A DNA stretch of 64,000 nucleotides, taken from positions 4,436,461 through 4,500,460 of the forward strand of contig NZ_OX365700.1 in NCBI RefSeq assembly GCF_947241125.1, read 5' to 3'. Origin of the DNA: Nitrospira tepida. GTDB lineage: Bacteria; Nitrospirota; Nitrospiria; Nitrospirales; Nitrospiraceae. Both the position numbers and the translations under genes were made by a program. Under the pieces are notes generated by a model, which was not told where the DNA came from, did no database searches, and worked only from the letters and a program-made list of their open reading frames with translations. Of the stretch, positions 3,690-56,168 are shown piece after piece (position 1 is the first letter of the stretch; each line of letters opens with the position of its first letter).

Positions 3690-3697
3690 AGCGTCCT

Positions 3698-3872
3698 CCA
3701 TCCCAACCTTTGGTTGAACCGGCGGCTTTTCTTCGTCGTATCGAAGCTGACGCCGCCGGAGAAACACCTCAGATGACTCTTGTTTCTTCTCTACACCACC
3801 TTTGGTTGAACGGCCGCCCTTTCGATGGCTCTTGGCGGCCGGAGAAAACCCAGCAGTGATCCTGCTTCTTCT
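3698..3872 (-). repeat. Leader-repeat locus A (two units)
   Basis: Two tandem units (3698-3790 and 3791-3872) of the dispersed structured repeat. Each begins, read on the plus strand, with a CAACC/GGTTG hairpin whose loop is TTT here, followed by a GC-rich stem and a GAGAAA-type block. Unit 2 has a different GC stem (GGCCGCC with GGCGGCC) from unit 1. The hairpin of unit 1 lies immediately upstream of the ribosome site of the CBS gene. Confidence 0.85.
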
Positions 3873-17457: not shown

Positions 17458-17549
17458 CCATCAATCATCAATCGTCAACCGTCACTCGGAGAGTCCGGAG
17501 TAGTCAGGCTGTTTACCGATTGACGAATGACCAGTGACGAATGACGGTA
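17458..17549. repeat. Short-word array (GTCAATC/GACGAATG type)
   Basis: This space between the DUF2892 and SQR-like genes is made largely of words like ATCAATCGTCAACCGTCA and GATTGACGAATGACC, in both orientations. No gene or promoter is evident in it. Confidence 0.65.
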
Positions 17550-17776: not shown

Positions 17777-17808
17777 CGCCAACCTTCGGTTGAGCCGGCG
17801 GGCGTCTG
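17777..17808 (-). repeat. Leader-repeat locus B (partial)
   Basis: Only the terminal hairpin (CAACC, TTC loop, GGTTG) and the beginning of the GC-rich stem are recognisable. As at other loci, the hairpin lies directly upstream of the ribosome site, here of the DUF2892 gene. Confidence 0.75.
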
Positions 17809-19833: not shown

Positions 19834-21249
19834 GTGGATCTGAACGTGCTCATCGTGGGCGGCGGCATCCACGGCGTGGGAATCCTGCATGACCTCGCCT
19901 CCCGCCGCATCGGGGGAGTTCACCTCGCTGAACGCGAACGGCTTGCCTCCGGCACATCAAGCCGAACGACCAAGCTCATGCACGGAGGTTTACGGTATCT
20001 CGCGCACCTGTCGCAATGGGGATTGGTCCGTGACGCGTTGAGGGAACGTGCGCTCCTCCTCAAGAATCTTCCTGAAGTCGTGCGTCCAATTCCGTTTGTC
20101 CTCCCTGTTTTTCGATCGGGCCGGCCCTCTTGGATGATTCGTCTTGGATTGCGCCTTTATGAGAGCTTGGCCACGACTGCCGATGACCTCCCTCGCGCGC
20201 GGCGACTTGGCCCTCACGAACTCGGTGAACTCGCGCCTTATCTCCATTCACACGTCCTTCAGCATGAGATAAGTACGGCATTCTTGTTCTATGAGGCTCA
20301 GATGCAGGACGATGTGATCGTCCGGCTTGCTGCGCGCGCCGCCGCTCGTCTCGGTGCCACCTATGCCGAAGAGACGTTCGTGGATCGCGTGGAGTGCGAC
20401 GGCCAGGGGTTTCGTGTCCGGTTGGTCGATGCGCAGGGCGTGAACGAGGTCACCTGTCGCGTGCTCGTGAATGCCGCGGGAGCCTGGTGCAATGCGAATT
20501 TATTACGCTGGGGATTCCTTCCGCAGGTGACGTGCCTCCTCAACGTCGGCTCTCATCTCGTCCTCTCTCCCTCCGCCATCCCGGCGAACCCGGACCACTG
20601 TGCCGCCGCGGCCCTTCAACATGAGGATGGCCGCCTGGTCTTCTTCATCCCCTGGGCCGGACGATGGCTCCTCGGCACGACTGAATCCCAGCTTGAGGGG
20701 ACGCCAGAGAAGTGGACCCACCCCCCAGGGGATCGTGAGTATCTGTTGAACATCGCGAAGCAGTATCTTGCCCTTGTTCACCCGGGCGAACAGGTGATCG
20801 AGGCCTTCTGCGGCATCAGGACCATTCCAATTGTGCGGCGGTCGGGACGCGCGAGCAGCAGAGTGACCTCCGGCTCATGGACTCAGGCTCCGTTCTCCTC
20901 ACCGTTTTACGTTCGGAAGTGGAATCACGAGACAGCGAGCCTCTCGCGCAAGGCCGTGATCGATGAGTACCCCGGCCACAGGTTGGTTTCCATCTACGGT
21001 GGAAAATTCACGACCTACCGCGCACTCAGCGAAACAGTGGGAGACCGGATTGCGCAGTGGCTGGGGCAGGGTGGGGAGTGCGGCACCAAGGCCAGACAGG
21101 CTTGGTTTCTCGATGACCTCCAACCGGCTGAGGCGCACCTGTTTCGCTCGCAGGCCGAGTTGCGGCAAGGCCGGATCTCCGATTGGAATAGCGGGCGGGT
21201 TATTCGTCAACCGTCATTCGTCAATCGTGGGATCGCCTCCTCCGATTGA
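19834..21249 (+). CDS. glpD: Glycerol-3-phosphate dehydrogenase-like FAD enzyme, C-terminus altered
   Basis: A 471-residue FAD-dependent oxidoreductase of the GlpD/DAO family. The start is a GTG at 19834. The FAD fold is at the N-terminus (VGGGIHGVG, residues 8-16), the family block GTSSRTTKLMHGGLRYLAH is near 40-58, and GGKFTTYRAL is near 389-398. GlpD normally continues with a C-terminal helical domain of about 120 residues; here only about 70 residues follow. The last part (RVIRQPSFVNRGIASSD) is translated from a short-word repeat array. The enzyme may thus be truncated or a natural short form. Nearby genes do not form a glycerol operon. Confidence 0.82.
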   Translation: MDLNVLIVGGGIHGVGILHDLASRRIGGVHLAERERLASGTSSRTTKLMHGGLRYLAHLSQWGLVRDALRERALLLKNLPEVVRPIPFVLPVFRSGRPSWMIRLGLRLYESLATTADDLPRARRLGPHELGELAPYLHSHVLQHEISTAFLFYEAQMQDDVIVRLAARAAARLGATYAEETFVDRVECDGQGFRVRLVDAQGVNEVTCRVLVNAAGAWCNANLLRWGFLPQVTCLLNVGSHLVLSPSAIPANPDHCAAAALQHEDGRLVFFIPWAGRWLLGTTESQLEGTPEKWTHPPGDREYLLNIAKQYLALVHPGEQVIEAFCGIRTIPIVRRSGRASSRVTSGSWTQAPFSSPFYVRKWNHETASLSRKAVIDEYPGHRLVSIYGGKFTTYRALSETVGDRIAQWLGQGGECGTKARQAWFLDDLQPAEAHLFRSQAELRQGRISDWNSGRVIRQPSFVNRGIASSD

Positions 21250-21262
21250 CGGTTGACCATCG
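21200..21262. repeat. Short-word array at glpD 3' end
   Basis: Words such as ATTCGTCAACCGTCATTCG and GATTGACGGTTGACC form the last codons, the stop codon and the region beyond the glpD-like gene. Confidence 0.7.
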
Positions 21263-21284
21263 ATGGATTTCGATAAGACGACGA

Positions 21285-21450
21285 AGCGGCGTCGGATCTA
21301 GCAAAGCTTGGTATGGGAACAAAGGCGAGAAGCATCACTGAAGGTGTCTCTCCGACGGCATCCATGAAGAGGGGCTTCGCCCGATGGGCCGCCGGCTCAA
21401 GGGAAGCTTAGTATGGCTTGCCGTTCAACCGAAGGTTGGTATAAAGGTGC
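21285..21450 (+). repeat. Leader-repeat locus C (plus orientation)
   Basis: This is the only copy in the opposite orientation, matching the plus-strand gene that follows. It shows the AGC-AAA-GCT variant hairpin at about 21295-21312, a GC stem with inner GGGGCTTCGCCC at about 21373, and the terminal hairpin CAACC-GAA-GGTTG at 21426-21438, immediately before the ribosome site of the ybaK-like gene. Confidence 0.82.
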
Positions 21451-21454
21451 GGCC

Positions 21455-21937
21455 ATGAGTATCGCGAGGAAACTCAAAGCATATCTCGATCGCGAACACG
21501 TCCACTATGACGTCCTGCCTCACCCGGAAGCCTTTCGCGCGATTGAGATCGCCCGTGCGCTCCACGCCCCTGAGAAGGAACTGGCGAAGGTCGTGATAAT
21601 GAAGGTGGACGCGAGATTTGTCATGACCGTGCTGCCGGCCGGTTGGCTCGTGGATCTCCACCGCCTCCGTGATGTCTTCCGGACCCATCACGTCCGATTA
21701 GCGACCGAGGAGGAGTTCAAAGATCTCTTCCCGGACTGCGAGTTGGGCGCCATGCCGCCGTTCGGAAACCTCTACGGGCTGGACGTATACGCTGATCGAT
21801 CGCTCACAGAAGACGAACAGATCATCTTTCAGGCCGGCACCCATTCGGAAGCGATCCGCATGCGCTACATGGACTTCGCCTCACTGGTTTTTCCGGTCGT
21901 GGCGGAGTTCCATCAGTTACACTCAACGGTCCGGTGA
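21455..21937 (+). CDS. YbaK/EbsC-type aminoacyl-tRNA deacylase domain protein
   Basis: A 160-residue cytoplasmic protein with the YbaK fold: YDVLPHPEAFRAIEIARAL, KELAKVVIMKVDARFVMTVL with the family lysine in AKVV, and GAMPPFGNLYGLDVYAD near 110. Such domains remove mischarged amino acids from tRNA in trans. Some members of this DUF/YbaK subgroup are stress-linked. ATG 21455 follows AAAGG, which directly abuts the terminal hairpin of repeat locus C. Confidence 0.85.
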   Translation: MSIARKLKAYLDREHVHYDVLPHPEAFRAIEIARALHAPEKELAKVVIMKVDARFVMTVLPAGWLVDLHRLRDVFRTHHVRLATEEEFKDLFPDCELGAMPPFGNLYGLDVYADRSLTEDEQIIFQAGTHSEAIRMRYMDFASLVFPVVAEFHQLHSTVR

Positions 21938-27470: not shown

Positions 27471-27527
27471 CCGGCCCATTTGCTCATCATCATTCCCGGC
27501 GAACCCGCTTCCGAAGCGGACGTTATA

Positions 27528-27620
27528 CGTCATGCGTCATCGGTCAATCGTTGAAAAAGACAGCGCCTGATGCTTCCCCCCCTCGGTCTCGATTGACGAA
27601 TGACGATTGACGACTCTGCT
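27528..27620. repeat. Short-word array between TolC and adaptor genes
   Basis: Words such as CGTCATGCGTCATCGGTCAA and ATTGACGAATGACGATTGACG-like sequence fill this gap within the efflux operon. Confidence 0.65.
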
Positions 27621-29038: not shown

Positions 29039-29050
29039 GAGATCCCCCCT

Positions 29051-29545
29051 CCATACCAACCTTCGGTTGAGCTGGCCGCCCCTTTGATGGTTCTTGGCGG
29101 CCGGAGAAAACACCTCACGGGATTTCTCCCGCCTTTTCTCCATACCAACCTTCGGTTGAGCCGCGGGCCATACCAACCTTGGTTGAACCGCCCGCTCTTT
29201 ATTGCTGTATCGAATATGATGCGGGCGGAGAAACCCCTTTAGCGTTTCTCTCGCCCTGGTTATGCTTCCATCGGATGGCTTCATTGACGCCCGCGGAGAA
29301 ATCCCTTCAGCGAGTCTTTATTCCTCGAAACCAAGCTTCGCTAGAACCGGCGGCTCATCGGGCGAAGCCCGTCTTCATGGACGCCGCCGGAGAAACACCT
29401 CACGGGATTTCTCCCGTCTTTTCTCCATCCCAACCTTCGCTTGAACCGTCGGCTCTTTATCGTCTTTTCGTAACGGCGCCGGCGGAGAAGCACCTTGCAC
29501 ATTTCCCTTCCTCTGGTTTTCATACGCCGCCGGAGACCTGCCTGC
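29051..29545 (-). repeat. Leader-repeat locus D (about six units, largest array)
   Basis: Tandem and partial units of the leader repeat. Distinct GC stems show compensatory pairing: GGCCGCC 29074-29080 with GGCGGCC 29096-29102; CCGCCCGC 29188-29195 with GCGGGCGG 29221-29228; CCGGCGGC 29347-29354 with GCCGCCGG 29383-29390. The last encloses GGGC 29360-29363 with GCCC 29367-29370. The terminal hairpin lies directly before the ribosome site of the TolC gene. No gene is seen in 29039-29592. Confidence 0.88.
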
Positions 29546-30505: not shown

Positions 30506-30583
30506 GGCTACAGTCGAAAGGGCGGACTGGCGCGAGATGCCACAGCCTCTCATCGTCGGAAGGTACGAAGATGCGCCACGACC

Positions 30584-30678
30584 TCCATACCAAGCTTTGC
30601 TAGAACCGGCGGCTCATCGGGCGAAGCCCCTCTTCATTATCGCCGCCGGAGACACCCCTCCAGTGATTACTCTCTAAC
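30584..30678 (-). repeat. Leader-repeat locus E (one unit)
   Basis: One nearly complete unit with the CAAGC/TAG-type hairpin variant, a CCGGCGGC stem with inner GGGC-GAA-GCCC, and the following GAGACACCCCTC block. It overlaps the stop region of the glucan phosphorylase gene. Unlike the other loci it is not next to a start codon; the next gene on this strand begins at 30162, beyond the MITE-like element. Confidence 0.82.
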
Positions 30679-42521: not shown

Positions 42522-44503
42522 GCCGCCGCCTCCTTGGCCGTCCGCCGCTCCTGCCGCTCGAGCGACATCACGCGATAGACAAACACGTCTTCCAGGCTCA
42601 GCGGCAACTGGGTCACCGCATCGACCCGAATGCGTTCCGCCTCCAACATCCTCCGAATCCTCGACTCTTCGCGGGCCGGATCGGAGGCCAACAGGTGAAT
42701 GTTCGTCCCGAACAGCGCCGCACCGGCATATCCGGCCTGTTCCAGCCGCTTGAGCGCCGGGGAGGGTTGGTCCGTCCGGATCTCCAGGAGCCGGCCCGCC
42801 TCCTCTTCTACCCGACTTTTCATGTCGGCGGGCGCCCCCTCGGCGACCACGCGGCCAGCATACATCAGGGCCAGGTGATCGCAATGTTCCGCTTCGCTCA
42901 TATAGTGGGTCGTGATCAGGATTGCGACGCCATCCTCGCGGGACAGTCGAGACAGGATGTCCCAGAAGCGGCGCCGGCCGATCGGGTCCACCCCGGAGGT
43001 CGGCTCATCGAGAAACAGCACGCGCGGCCGATGGACCAGCGCGCAGCCCAATGCCAAACGCTGCCGCACGCCCATGGGAAGCCGGCCCGTCAGATCCGTT
43101 TCGTAACCCTTGAGGCCCGCCATCGCCAAAATCCACTCCAACCGTTCACGGGTTTCCCGCCCGCTCAATCCATAGATCCCGGCAAAGAGCCGGATGTTCT
43201 CCACCACGGTCAAATCCAGATACAGGGAAAAGGCCTGGGACATATAGCCGATCCGCTCCTTGATCGTCCCGGCGGCGCCGCGCATGTCGGCGCCGGCCAC
43301 CCACCCCTCACCCTCCGACGGCGGGAGAATGCCGGTCAGCATCTTGATGACGGTGGTTTTGCCCGCTCCATTGGCTCCCAAGAGGCCGAAGATCTCCCCC
43401 TGTTTCACGCGGAAGCCGACGCGATCCACCGCCCGAAACGCCCCGAAGTCCCGGCTCAAGTCCTTCGCTTCGATGGCCACCCCCTCGTGCGTGTTTCGCT
43501 CGGACGCCGGAGGTGTCCATTCCGCAGCCGCCGCTTGGCCGGTTTGCCCCGATTGCCGGAGCAACAGGGCGACAAAGACGTCCTCGAGTTCGGAGGCCTC
43601 CGTGCGGATGTGCGGGGCGGGGAATTCGCCGAGCACCGCTTGGACGCGCCGCACGGCCGTCGCCGGATCAGGGTCCTGCAGAAAGACATGTATCGCCGGA
43701 CCGAGCGCTTCCGCCTGCGGAAACTCCCGCTTCAACCGCTCCAATGCCTCCAGTTGCAGGGTCGCTTGGAGCACGACCTTGACGCCCGGAACCATCGCGA
43801 GAATGTCCGCGGGCCTGCCGACGGTCAAGGTGACGCCCTGCGAAAGAAACGACAATCGGTGAAAGCGGGCCGCTTCATCCATGTAGGCGGTCGAAACCAG
43901 CGCCGTCATGCCGCGTTCCTGAAGAAGCTCGGCGAGGATGATCCAGAAGTCGCGTCGCGAGACGGGATCGACGCCGGTCGTCGGCTCGTCAAGGATGGCC
44001 AGCTCCGGCTCATGAATCAGCGTGCAGATCAACCCGAGCTTCTGCTTCATCCCGCCCGAAAGCTGCTTCATCGGCCTGTCGCGGAAACGATCGAGTCGGG
44101 TCATCGCCAGCAGCCGAGCCTTGCGCTCGCGAAGTTCGGCCTCCGGGACTAATCGCAGGCGGGCGAAGAAGTCGATGTTCTCCTCGACGGAAAGTTCCGG
44201 GTAGAGGTTCAGCCCCAGGCCCTGAGGAAGGAACCCGATCCGCTGTTTCACCTGTTCGGCGGCCCGTTCCGAATCCACCCGTATTCCAAACACCTCGACT
44301 TCACCGGCCTCGTACGACAGGACCCCGGCGATCGCCTTCATCAGGCTGCTCTTGCCGGAGCCATCAGGCCCGATGAGGCCGTAGATCTCTCCACGCCGGA
44401 CTTCGAGATCCACGCCCTGCACGGCGACGTGCCTCTTGTAGCGCTTGACGAAGCCGGAGACGCGCACAATCGTTTGATCGTCAGCCATTGGCGGGTTTGT
44501 CAT
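42518..44503 (-). CDS. Tandem ABC ATPase (RbbA/YhiH-like, two nucleotide-binding domains)
   Basis: A 661-residue cytoplasmic protein with two ATPase domains. Domain 1 has Walker A GPDGSGKSSL (45-54), signature LSGGMKQK and LAILDEPTTGVDP. Domain 2 begins near 345 with GANGAGKTTV and LFLDEPTSGVDP, but its signature reads LPMGVRQRL, as in the YhiH group. A C-terminal membrane permease region as in full RbbA is absent and is instead encoded by the next two genes. The first ATG (44503) lies in a short-word array; ATG 44488 is the alternative. Confidence 0.9.
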   Translation of the reverse strand: MTNPPMADDQTIVRVSGFVKRYKRHVAVQGVDLEVRRGEIYGLIGPDGSGKSSLMKAIAGVLSYEAGEVEVFGIRVDSERAAEQVKQRIGFLPQGLGLNLYPELSVEENIDFFARLRLVPEAELRERKARLLAMTRLDRFRDRPMKQLSGGMKQKLGLICTLIHEPELAILDEPTTGVDPVSRRDFWIILAELLQERGMTALVSTAYMDEAARFHRLSFLSQGVTLTVGRPADILAMVPGVKVVLQATLQLEALERLKREFPQAEALGPAIHVFLQDPDPATAVRRVQAVLGEFPAPHIRTEASELEDVFVALLLRQSGQTGQAAAAEWTPPASERNTHEGVAIEAKDLSRDFGAFRAVDRVGFRVKQGEIFGLLGANGAGKTTVIKMLTGILPPSEGEGWVAGADMRGAAGTIKERIGYMSQAFSLYLDLTVVENIRLFAGIYGLSGRETRERLEWILAMAGLKGYETDLTGRLPMGVRQRLALGCALVHRPRVLFLDEPTSGVDPIGRRRFWDILSRLSREDGVAILITTHYMSEAEHCDHLALMYAGRVVAEGAPADMKSRVEEEAGRLLEIRTDQPSPALKRLEQAGYAGAALFGTNIHLLASDPAREESRIRRMLEAERIRVDAVTQLPLSLEDVFVYRVMSLERQERRTAKEAAA

Positions 44504-44645
44504 TCGTCAGACGTCATTCGTCAACCGAAAAGACACCAACCATACTCGCACGGAAAAGCTCGTCAATCGGCAAGCGTCATTCGTCAATCGGAAAACACGA
44601 ATGACGGTTGATGTTTCCCTCGCGATTGACGATTGACGTTTAACG
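44498..44645. repeat. Short-word array between ATPase and HlyD genes
   Basis: A dense array of words such as TTTGTCATTCGTCAG, GTCAATCGGCAAGCGTCATT and GATTGACGATTGACG fills the 142-base gap and reaches into the first codons of the ATPase gene. Confidence 0.7.
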
Positions 44646-46079: not shown

Positions 46080-46090
46080 CTTCCCTTCCT

Positions 46091-46340
46091 CCATACCAAC
46101 CTTCGGTTGAACCGGCGACTCATCGGGCGAAGCCCCTCTTCATTGACGCCGCCGGAGGAACACCTCAAGTGATTCTTCTCCCTTTCTCTCCATACCAACC
46201 TTTGGTTGAACCGGCGGCTCATCGGGCGAAGCCCCTCTATACCAAGCTTCGCTTGAACCGCGGGCTCTTTATCGTCTTTTCATGCCTGCGCCGGCGGAGA
46301 AGCACCGACGCTCGTCAACCTTCTTCCGGTTTTCATAGGC
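46091..46340 (-). repeat. Leader-repeat locus F (three units)
   Basis: Three tandem units: 46091-46189, 46190-46237 (short) and 46238-46340. Unit 3 has hairpin CAAGC 46243-46247 with GCTTG 46251-46255, a compensatory change relative to CAACC/GGTTG in units 1 and 2. The first hairpin is directly upstream of the CDGSH gene ribosome site. A minus-strand frame runs through all units without a stop. No separate gene is seen in this gap. Confidence 0.87.
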
Positions 46341-47925: not shown

Positions 47926-48309
47926 GTGCCTTACCTTCCCTCGCCCGGGGTGTCCATTGCTCACGAACCATCTGAATGTATCCCATCAACGACGATTCGC
48001 AGCTTACTCTAAAACCTCGCGAGACAGCAAAGTTCGTGCCCTCGCGCCGCATGAAGGACGACGCGCCGCAGCGGCGCCAGAACCCTCAACACGAAACCAG
48101 CAAATGAGGTCGGCCGAGCGGGGCATGAGGCGTCAAGCCGGCGAGAGGAGACTGTGGCGGATCGGGACAGTCACGGGTCATGCGTCAAGCGTCATTTGTG
48201 AGAGGCGGAACTCCTTGATCGCCTCGGGTTCCTTTTGATTGACGTTTGACAGGTCACCAACGACGGTCGCCGTCAAGGCCTCTCCAGCGTTGATGAGATG
48301 AATGATGAG
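47926..48309. other. Gap with short-word array
   Basis: A gene-free stretch of about 380 bases. The part from 48171 to 48253 is a short-word array (GTCATGCGTCAAGCGTCATT, GATTGACGTTTGACAG). I see no other feature in the remainder. Confidence 0.6.
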
Positions 48310-48786
48310 CTAACTTCGAGCCAGGGAGGCGGCCGAGAACAGGACAGCCAAGGCCAGCAGAAGCGAACTTCGCGCCACCCAGGGAGACCAGCGGAGGAGC
48401 AGCAGATCGGAAGCGGAGCGTTCCTGCTCCGGTCGTTTCATGATCTCCGCCACGCGAGGACCCAGCGCAAGATCATGCGCCGCCGTGAGACCGAACAAGA
48501 CACCGACAAGGATCAGCTTGATCGCAAAGACAGTAGGCCAGGTAGTCGGATTGATGAGAGAGATGCCGCGCCTGGCGGCCAAAATCGGCCCGGTGACCAG
48601 CAACAGCAGCATGGCGCTCCAGGCCACCAGGCGAAACCGGCGCGCCACGATGGGGAATAGGACCGCGCGTTGCTGCGCCAGCGGCGGCTTTCGAATGACT
48701 GGCACCACGACCAACGACAGAAAGATCATGCCCCCGATCCAACTGACCGCGGCAAGAATGTGCAGCCAGGTCAGGAAGATCGTCAT
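48310..48786 (-). CDS. CopD/DUF2269-like membrane protein
   Basis: A 158-residue protein with four membrane segments and the opening TWLHILAAVSWIGGMIFL, including the H and W typical of CopD-family copper-handling proteins. Copper uptake or export into the periplasm is a reasonable guess and would fit the multicopper oxidase region upstream. The start ATG at 48786 lies in a short-word array with no ribosome site visible, so either the start is wrong or initiation is weak. Confidence 0.75.
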   Translation of the reverse strand: MTIFLTWLHILAAVSWIGGMIFLSLVVVPVIRKPPLAQQRAVLFPIVARRFRLVAWSAMLLLLVTGPILAARRGISLINPTTWPTVFAIKLILVGVLFGLTAAHDLALGPRVAEIMKRPEQERSASDLLLLRWSPWVARSSLLLALAVLFSAASLARS

Positions 48787-48822
48787 TCGTTATTCGTCAT
48801 CGGTCACTCGTCATTCGTGAAA
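48780..48822. repeat. Short-word array at CopD-like gene start
   Basis: Words CGTCATTCGTTATTCGTCAT and CACTCGTCATTCGTG. The gene start codon lies inside the array. Confidence 0.65.
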
Positions 48823-52502: not shown

Positions 52503-52837
52503 GTTCGGCATCCTCCTGTCCCTGCATCACGGCGAATGCGAACGCACTGCATCCGAGAACCACCCAGCTCCATCGAAGGAACAATTCGTCAAAGACATCG
52601 AGGCTTGCAGCGCGTTTGCCGATCTGCTGCCTCGACCGTCCTCGGAAAAGCGGCGTCGTCTGAAACGTCATACGTCGACCGTCACCTGTCACAAGTCACG
52701 ATGGGGCCGGCAATACCGTCAATCGTCAAAGGTCAATCGTCATTCGCGAAGAGCCAGGAATTCGTTTATCGACTCCGCTTCCGTTCGATTAACGTTTGGC
52801 GAATGACGATTGGCGAGCGGCCCATGGCCATGCCCGA
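52503..52837. other. Gap with short-word array
   Basis: About 335 bases without a gene between the fragment and the full SUMF1-like gene. A long short-word array occupies 52665-52815 (for example ATACCGTCAATCGTCAAAGG and GATTAACGTTTGGCGAATGA). Confidence 0.6.
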
Positions 52838-55854: not shown

Positions 55855-55862
55855 CCCGGCCT

Positions 55863-56038
55863 CCATACCAAGCTTGCTAGCCCCGGCGGCTCATCGGGCG
55901 AAGCCCCTCTTCATTGATGCCGCCGGAGAAACACCTCCAGTGATCCCTCCCGCTTTCCTCTCCATACCAAGCTTGCTAGAACCGGCGGCTCATTGGGAGA
56001 AGCCCTTCTTCTTGACGCCGCCGGAGAACGCCTTCAGT
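55863..56038 (-). repeat. Leader-repeat locus G (two units)
   Basis: Two units (55863-55961 and 55962-56038) with the AGC-type hairpin variant, CCGGCGGC or close stems and GGGC-GAA-GCCC inner hairpin (imperfect in unit 2). The first hairpin is immediately upstream of the ribosome site of the cupredoxin-like gene. Confidence 0.85.
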
Positions 56039-56039
56039 A

Positions 56040-56168
56040 CCAGTGCTGAGTCCTGAAAGCCCAGTGCTGAGCGATGAGCGCTGAGTTCCAGATCCCACGA
56101 CATGCAAGGATCCTCTCAGCAATTCCTCTTGTTCAGCACTCAGTCTCCAGGCCTTAGAACCCAGCACA
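56040..56168. repeat. Short-word array of CAGCACTGAG type
   Basis: A different word class: CCAGTGCTGAG, GAGCGCTGAGTT, CTCTCAGC and CAGCACTCAG repeat in both orientations over about 130 bases. It resembles in style, but not in sequence, the GTCATTCG arrays. Confidence 0.6.

Follow-up and report, generated by a model that had tools for sequence, protein, structure and literature searches.

A 64,000-nucleotide stretch of the 4.73-Mb genome of Nitrospira tepida (the stretch is called the window here, and the genome G000) contains a dispersed hairpin repeat, copies of which lie directly in front of unrelated genes. We interpret this repeat, with a probability that we put at roughly 0.6, as a non-autonomous mobile DNA element of Nitrospiraceae, which inserts at a GG on the 5' side of Shine-Dalgarno sequences (SDs) or after the CC(A) end of transfer RNA (tRNA) genes and adds new units at the gene-proximal side of existing ones.

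The hairpin CAACC-GAA-GGTTG, which was noticed in a first-pass annotation made from the window sequence alone, is just the 3' end of a unit of about 93 nucleotides that has a larger GC-rich hairpin upstream and often occurs in tandem. Read in the direction of the gene, the unit begins with a left part whose last letters are T(C/A)TCC, continues with the GC-rich hairpin P2 (8 base pairs, variable loop) and the short terminal hairpin P3 (about 5 base pairs, GAA-type loop), and closes with GGTAT. The two ends of the unit differ in sequence. The left-end sequences AAACAC/GTGTTT were not accepted as a third hairpin, since only 57% of their pairs are standard. Allowing up to one mismatch, CAACCnnnGGTTG has 11 sites in the window compared with 1.96 ± 1.43 in shuffled sequences, and none of 100 shuffles reached 11, so that the hairpin is over-represented.

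A covariance model built from eleven window units (R1, scores in bits) detected about 142 units in 66 clusters in the genome, with all units of a cluster on a single strand and arranged head-to-tail in arrays. About 18 of these units have the length of a shorter 78-nucleotide subfamily with its own conserved flanks. The 74 arrays comprise 16 of the short type (77–78 nucleotides) and 58 of the long type. A survey of the phylum with a second model matched units in 76 of 79 genomes of the same family and in 2 of 217 genomes from elsewhere in the phylum. The exact motif CAAGCGAAGCTTGGTATGGnG was present in 52 stretches of named genomes, all of which belong to Nitrospira or Nitrospirae, except for one bin labelled Aquabacterium, which is probably mis-binned; viral contigs gave zero matches to the motif. 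The covariance-model search proposed by the first-pass annotation thus uncovered a family bigger than was first seen. The annotation could not match the repeat to a named RNA or REP family; no Rfam family matched in the window at the gathering threshold, and the features of REP sequences and their RAYT transposases are lacking. We found no account of this repeat in Nitrospira in the open literature, the search of which did not extend to subscription papers.

The placement of the arrays is highly specific. The 58 long-type arrays were sorted into target classes by hand, partly by eye, with their context judged on stretches of ±2.5 kb and gene starts taken from a home-made gene caller run on partial stretches. 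The TAT end is followed by an SD-like sequence in 32 arrays, with the start codon 10–18 nucleotides after TATGG, and in three further arrays a small remnant, or else a wider gap, lies between the array and the start codon, which gives 35 of 58 at gene starts. Nine arrays run antisense to a tRNA and stop precisely at its 3' CCA, and one (L050) stops in the same manner at that of transfer-messenger RNA (tmRNA). Five others adjoin fragments of tRNA 3' ends, one abuts tRNA-Ser(UGA) on its 5' side, and seven end elsewhere. The offset of the overlap with the tRNA is identical in 9 of 9 tRNA arrays, and the tmRNA array has the same offset. Counted from the tRNA side, the element directly follows the CCA in 11 of 45 tRNA genes, including the Tyr and eroded Thr cases missed by the model. 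Strand and position bias relative to start codons, on which the first-pass annotation had staked its proposal, is extremely strong throughout the genome. According to a rough GC skew of the fetched loci, the long arrays mostly follow leading-strand genes, and the tRNA arrays display no replication-strand bias by eye.

The same pattern of targets recurs in the relatives G018, G019, G022, G002, G020, G011, and G004, whose loci were taken as the best-scoring matches. Among 52 named loci, 16 are at tRNA 3' ends, 5 at tRNA fragments, and 12 at gene starts, and the remainder belong mostly to the short subfamily. The 5' site of tRNA-Ser(UGA) is occupied both in the genome under study and in G018.

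At the junction, the GTAT end of the unit is joined to the GG of the target, so that the other strand reads CC followed by ATACC and the hairpin. The target GG is usually the opening of a native SD GGAGG or the complement of the CC in the CCA of a tRNA or tmRNA. Orthologues of the CDGSH gene of the window indicate the order of events, as the unit is present in this genome only among those read. At the position of TAT-GGAGGAAGGGAAGATG in this genome, the G013 orthologue reads ACA-GGAGGAAGCAGGATG. Because the repeat-free orthologue has the same GGAGG, the element stops just upstream of an existing SD, which is, as judged from the aligned sequences, native and older than the repeat. The earlier claim that the repeat contributes part of the SD is refuted by the same orthologue, in which GGAGGAAG is present without the repeat. 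Genes downstream of the units have no common function.

Six genes of the window had been listed as preceded by the hairpin. It is found at all six in the orientation of the gene, including the plus-strand ybaK-like gene (21455), with the reservation that the copy at the cupredoxin-like gene has the variant stem CTAGC-AA-GCTTG of the same family and the copy at the DUF2892 gene is an eroded right half without GTATGGAGG. Unit E was rightly singled out as the sole exception. At this locus, GGAGGTC is followed by GTG, nine codons, and a TGA stop, perhaps an eroded gene start. The copies in the window are as follows:

3690–3779, minus strand: full unit abutting the SD and start of the CBS-domain gene (3689, PF00571), R1 86.9 bits.
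3783–3862 (L107:2594-2673), minus strand: older upstream unit of the CBS array, R1 36.6 bits.
17777–17807, minus strand: eroded right half before the DUF2892-like gene (17760), matching CAACCGAAGGTTG at 17780–17792, no full model match.
21272–21316, plus strand: eroded left unit of the ybaK array, found by repeat search.
21332–21424, plus strand: full unit of the ybaK array, R1 85.9 bits.
21422–21442, plus strand: terminal hairpin remnant of an interrupted unit before the ybaK start at 21455, recognised from sequence.
29043–29125, minus strand: gene-proximal unit of the TolC array (start 29038), R1 60.9 bits.
29160–29248, minus strand: second unit of the TolC array, placed inside another unit according to the nested layout, R1 74.9 bits.
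29318–29410, minus strand: third unit of the TolC array, R1 99.3 bits.
29417–29505, minus strand: fourth unit of the TolC array, left-type, R1 79.1 bits.
30577–30669, minus strand: unit E, no intact gene directly downstream in the sequence, R1 98.2 bits.
46083–46175, minus strand: gene-proximal unit before the CDGSH gene (start 46079), R1 102.5 bits.
46088–46092, minus strand: native SD GGAGG of the CDGSH gene; the repeat-free G013 orthologue has ACAGGAGGAAG-CAGGATG.
46184–46228, minus strand: right half of the interrupted unit of the CDGSH array, recognised from sequence.
46229–46317, minus strand: left-type unit within the P2 loop of the interrupted CDGSH-array unit, delimited by its junctions, R1 69.6 bits.
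55855–55946, minus strand: gene-proximal unit before the cupredoxin-like gene (start 55854), R1 96.2 bits.
55954–56042, minus strand: second unit of the cupredoxin array, R1 79.1 bits.

Occupancy of the sites differs between relatives, and the copies are dispersed. The congeners G018 and G030 are 81–93% identical at the compared loci. The site at tRNA-Leu(UAG) is occupied in G018 and empty in G030, where the CCA is followed by CAAACAATC. At tRNA-Ser(UGA), G018 has one extra unit exactly between the older unit and GGAGGGG. In several arrays, a left-type unit is located within the P2 loop of another unit, with ATGAA directly before the inserted unit and (A)GAGGGG directly after its GGTAT end. 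No target duplication was seen at the nested junctions. Within arrays, the gene-proximal unit tends to be the freshest: it is the top-scoring one in 29 of 35 arrays (13.9 expected). When the target columns were dropped, it remained nearest to the consensus in 25 of 33 arrays (13.8 expected; Wilcoxon p 5e-5). The trend is also present in tRNA arrays, and therefore a leader function fails to explain the polarity.

The two helices are conserved as structures. Across 140 units, 94.9% of the pairs are standard, 206 double-sided changes were counted compared with 53 in shuffles, and the pairing collapses when the columns are slid by one. The stems contain 22 G.T and 43 A.C cells in both data sets, whereas the acceptor and T stems of tRNAs, used for comparison, contain 33 G.T and no A.C (Fisher p 1.7e-11), with the reservation that the decay of old copies feeds both classes. 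An RNA helix encoded on either strand should favour either G.T or A.C, and the lack of such an excess points to a DNA hairpin. This absence of a wobble preference is strong, although not absolute, evidence that the hairpin exists at the level of DNA.

Based on the junctions, the nested copies, and the polarity, a mechanism of insertion can be proposed. The unit would insert by joining its GTAT end to the target GG, so that the SD or the CCA is spared. Further units would enter the same junction, the arrays would grow gene-proximally, and the older units would drift away from the gene. Movement, or recognition, of the element presumably involves its folded single-stranded DNA form and a strand-specific recombinase. 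The SD and the tRNA CC(A) both offer the GG on a defined strand, and the orientation of the units towards genes follows from this. The first-pass annotation had offered a mobile element targeting leaders as one of two explanations. The data support this option, although the targeting of leaders is too narrow a description, as the 3' CCA of tRNAs and tmRNA and, rarely, a tRNA 5' end are also hit.

Several observations weigh against the element being mobile in this manner. GGAGG alone fails to explain the choice of targets: only 77 of 267 sampled intergenic GGAGG sequences are at SDs, and yet nearly all arrays joined to GGAGG sit at SDs. GGAGG is present at 22 of 25 genes with an array, and GGAGG or AGGAGG at 57 of 252 array-free genes. 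Of the GGAGG sites outside SDs, some may be parts of eroded units or pertain to genes that the caller missed, and the preference for SDs may also owe something to biased retention or to an additional recognition feature. The SDs of clpX (L124, L269) and of a zapA-like gene recognised by sequence only (L127, L261) carry a unit in two genera each. This sharing could reflect shared ancestry, retention, or repeated targeting, of which selective retention would be adverse. The left boundary and the absence of duplication are derived from nested copies rather than from a before-and-after pair covering both flanks. Nor was a mobilising enzyme found. Y1_Tnp is absent from the high-copy genomes G004, G018, and G023, and also from G020. 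Y2_Tnp is missing from almost all genomes of the family, with PF04986 found only as a fragment in one. The integron integrase TIGR02249 scores above the cut-off in 4 of 45 genomes and, at that cut-off, is missing from most carriers, among them G004, G018, G019, and G023. There was no recurrent recombinase among 990 neighbouring proteins. A search of the fetched loci for an extended autonomous version, carrying a gene flanked by the two P2 arms, gave nothing convincing.

The strongest competitor, which we nevertheless regard as unlikely, is a cis-acting RNA leader kept by selection to control translation or stability, in which pairing with the conserved TCTCC of the unit could mask the SD. The 35 arrays at gene starts are all leaders in gene orientation, and the clpX and zapA-like sites common to two genera would suit such a function. 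One window unit is predicted to fold with TTCCTCC paired to GGAGGAA. TCTCC is present in 37 of 43 copies at SDs and 19 of 34 copies at tRNAs (p 0.004), but the contrast is unclear within this genome (27 of 29 and 12 of 15). Against such a leader, the same element lies antisense at tRNA and tmRNA 3' ends, and tRNA or tmRNA ends account for roughly one in four long-type arrays. These sites were missed by the first-pass annotation, and they rule out a pure mRNA-leader element. Selection for translational control, the other explanation given there, is unsupported as a general one, since the downstream genes are unrelated, the SD predates the repeat, the CDGSH orthologues that were read do without the element, and the stems have no preference for G.U. 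A leader effect of the repeat on downstream genes is possible.

A REP/REPIN-like element moved by RAYT or an IS200/IS605 Y1 transposase would account for the hairpin beside a fixed junction, the imperfect P3 stem, and the DNA-type pairing, and the genome contains eight Y1_Tnp matches, one of them just past the window end. We consider this explanation improbable, because the examined RAYT loci (L116-L123) contain no R1 unit, the high-copy genomes named above and G020 have no Y1_Tnp, and the foot of the hairpin in the aligned junctions is GGTAT/ATACC instead of GTAG. The match next to the window is a RAYT-like gene at G000:C1:4500938-4501264, 478 bp past the end. Other Y1_Tnp genes of this genome form equal-scoring pairs (3240659/3242474 and 1369516/3620549).

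Slightly less credit is due to two further explanations, which we find about equally improbable. Integron-like insertion of attC-like folded units at fixed sites by a tyrosine recombinase would produce polar arrays, a structure conserved above sequence, and DNA-type pairing. However, the few integrase-positive genomes include G026 and G044, in which no units were found, and neither RYYYAAC/GTTRRRY boxes, as checked by eye, nor cassettes are present. The units could instead be by-products of larger integrative elements with attachment sites in tRNA 3' ends, as duplicated tRNA 3' ends of 19–30 nucleotides lie beside units in L151, L156, L158, L263, L271, and L282. Most units, however, lack such a duplication, the SD sites have no homology to tRNA, and the units are about 93 nucleotides long and occur in dispersed arrays. 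An origin as a miniature inverted-repeat transposable element (MITE) derived from a DDE transposon is not supported, given the lack of duplication at nested junctions and the differing ends of the unit, and neither is IS91/Helitron-like rolling-circle transposition, given the single Y2 transposase fragment in the family. RAYT/Y1, IS91/Y2, and integron integrase were rejected as mobilisers, since their distributions do not match that of the units.

Among known systems, integron attC sites are DNA hairpins conserved in structure over sequence that are inserted with polarity. The present repeat differs from them in its mismatched integrase distribution, the lack of core boxes and cassettes, and its many target loci. 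REP/REPIN sequences are short, dispersed, imperfect palindromes in intergenic regions, the hairpins of which are recognised as DNA (PMC8266576, PMC3116915, PMC3733652). The repeat resembles them in these respects, but it has a two-hairpin unit of about 93 nucleotides, no GTAG, no dependence on RAYT, head-to-tail polar arrays, and fixed positions at SDs and at the CCA of tRNAs. BOX, RUP, and ERIC-type repeats are dispersed, modular, at times tandem, and can occupy 5' leaders; pneumococcal repeats are enriched in the spacers of convergent gene pairs, and target duplications are a feature of MITEs (PMC3049150). In contrast, the repeat has an exact junction at the SD or tRNA end, and no duplication was seen. 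The TAACTGA direct repeats of marine Beggiatoaceae lie just upstream of the start codons of unrelated genes (PMC4679880), whereas the repeat described here is a hairpin unit that stops before an intact native SD and also targets tRNAs. In the literature compared, REP/RAYT, BOX-type, and TAACTGA repeats are the closest kinds, and none combines SD and tRNA targets.

We tentatively suggest, with a good deal less confidence than we have in mobility itself, that the units belong to an undescribed, near-universal site-specific system of Nitrospiraceae that inserts folded hairpins at boundaries of the translation apparatus and builds polar arrays. If so, insertions would be present at dozens of genes in each Nitrospira genome and, in this genome, at roughly one in four tRNA genes, all positioned precisely enough to leave the SD or CCA intact. 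Which enzyme recognises both kinds of boundary would become a testable question, together with the effects on expression in key nitrifiers. A further caution would be that a covarying hairpin in a leader may represent mobile DNA and not a riboregulator.

Several further features were observed. In G018 (L187) and G030 (L205), orthologous short units at site 1 have near-identical left flanks. Their P2 stems differ, both arms having changed together, as though the whole hairpin had been exchanged in one piece. The loci of the 78-nucleotide subfamily (L052, L097, about 16 other loci of this genome, such as 433426 and 3893133, and many in G004) are near-identical over up to about 300 bp, and a conserved GGCGGGC..GCTCGCCGCTC hairpin follows the unit. 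Inserts of about 170 nucleotides separate an intact tRNA from a duplicated 27–30-nucleotide copy of its 3' end (L156 1845–2001, L263, L271, L282). The inserts at four different tRNAs share the end GAGGCAGGCTTCAGGGC..CCGGCGACG, and each looks, from its sequence, like a mini integrative element. A second dispersed repeat consists of TGACGAATGACGATTGACG-like 8–9-mers clustered between genes on both strands; its clusters in the window are at 17466–17546, 21191–21265, 27514–27613, 44491–44645, 48169–48817, and 52703–52749.
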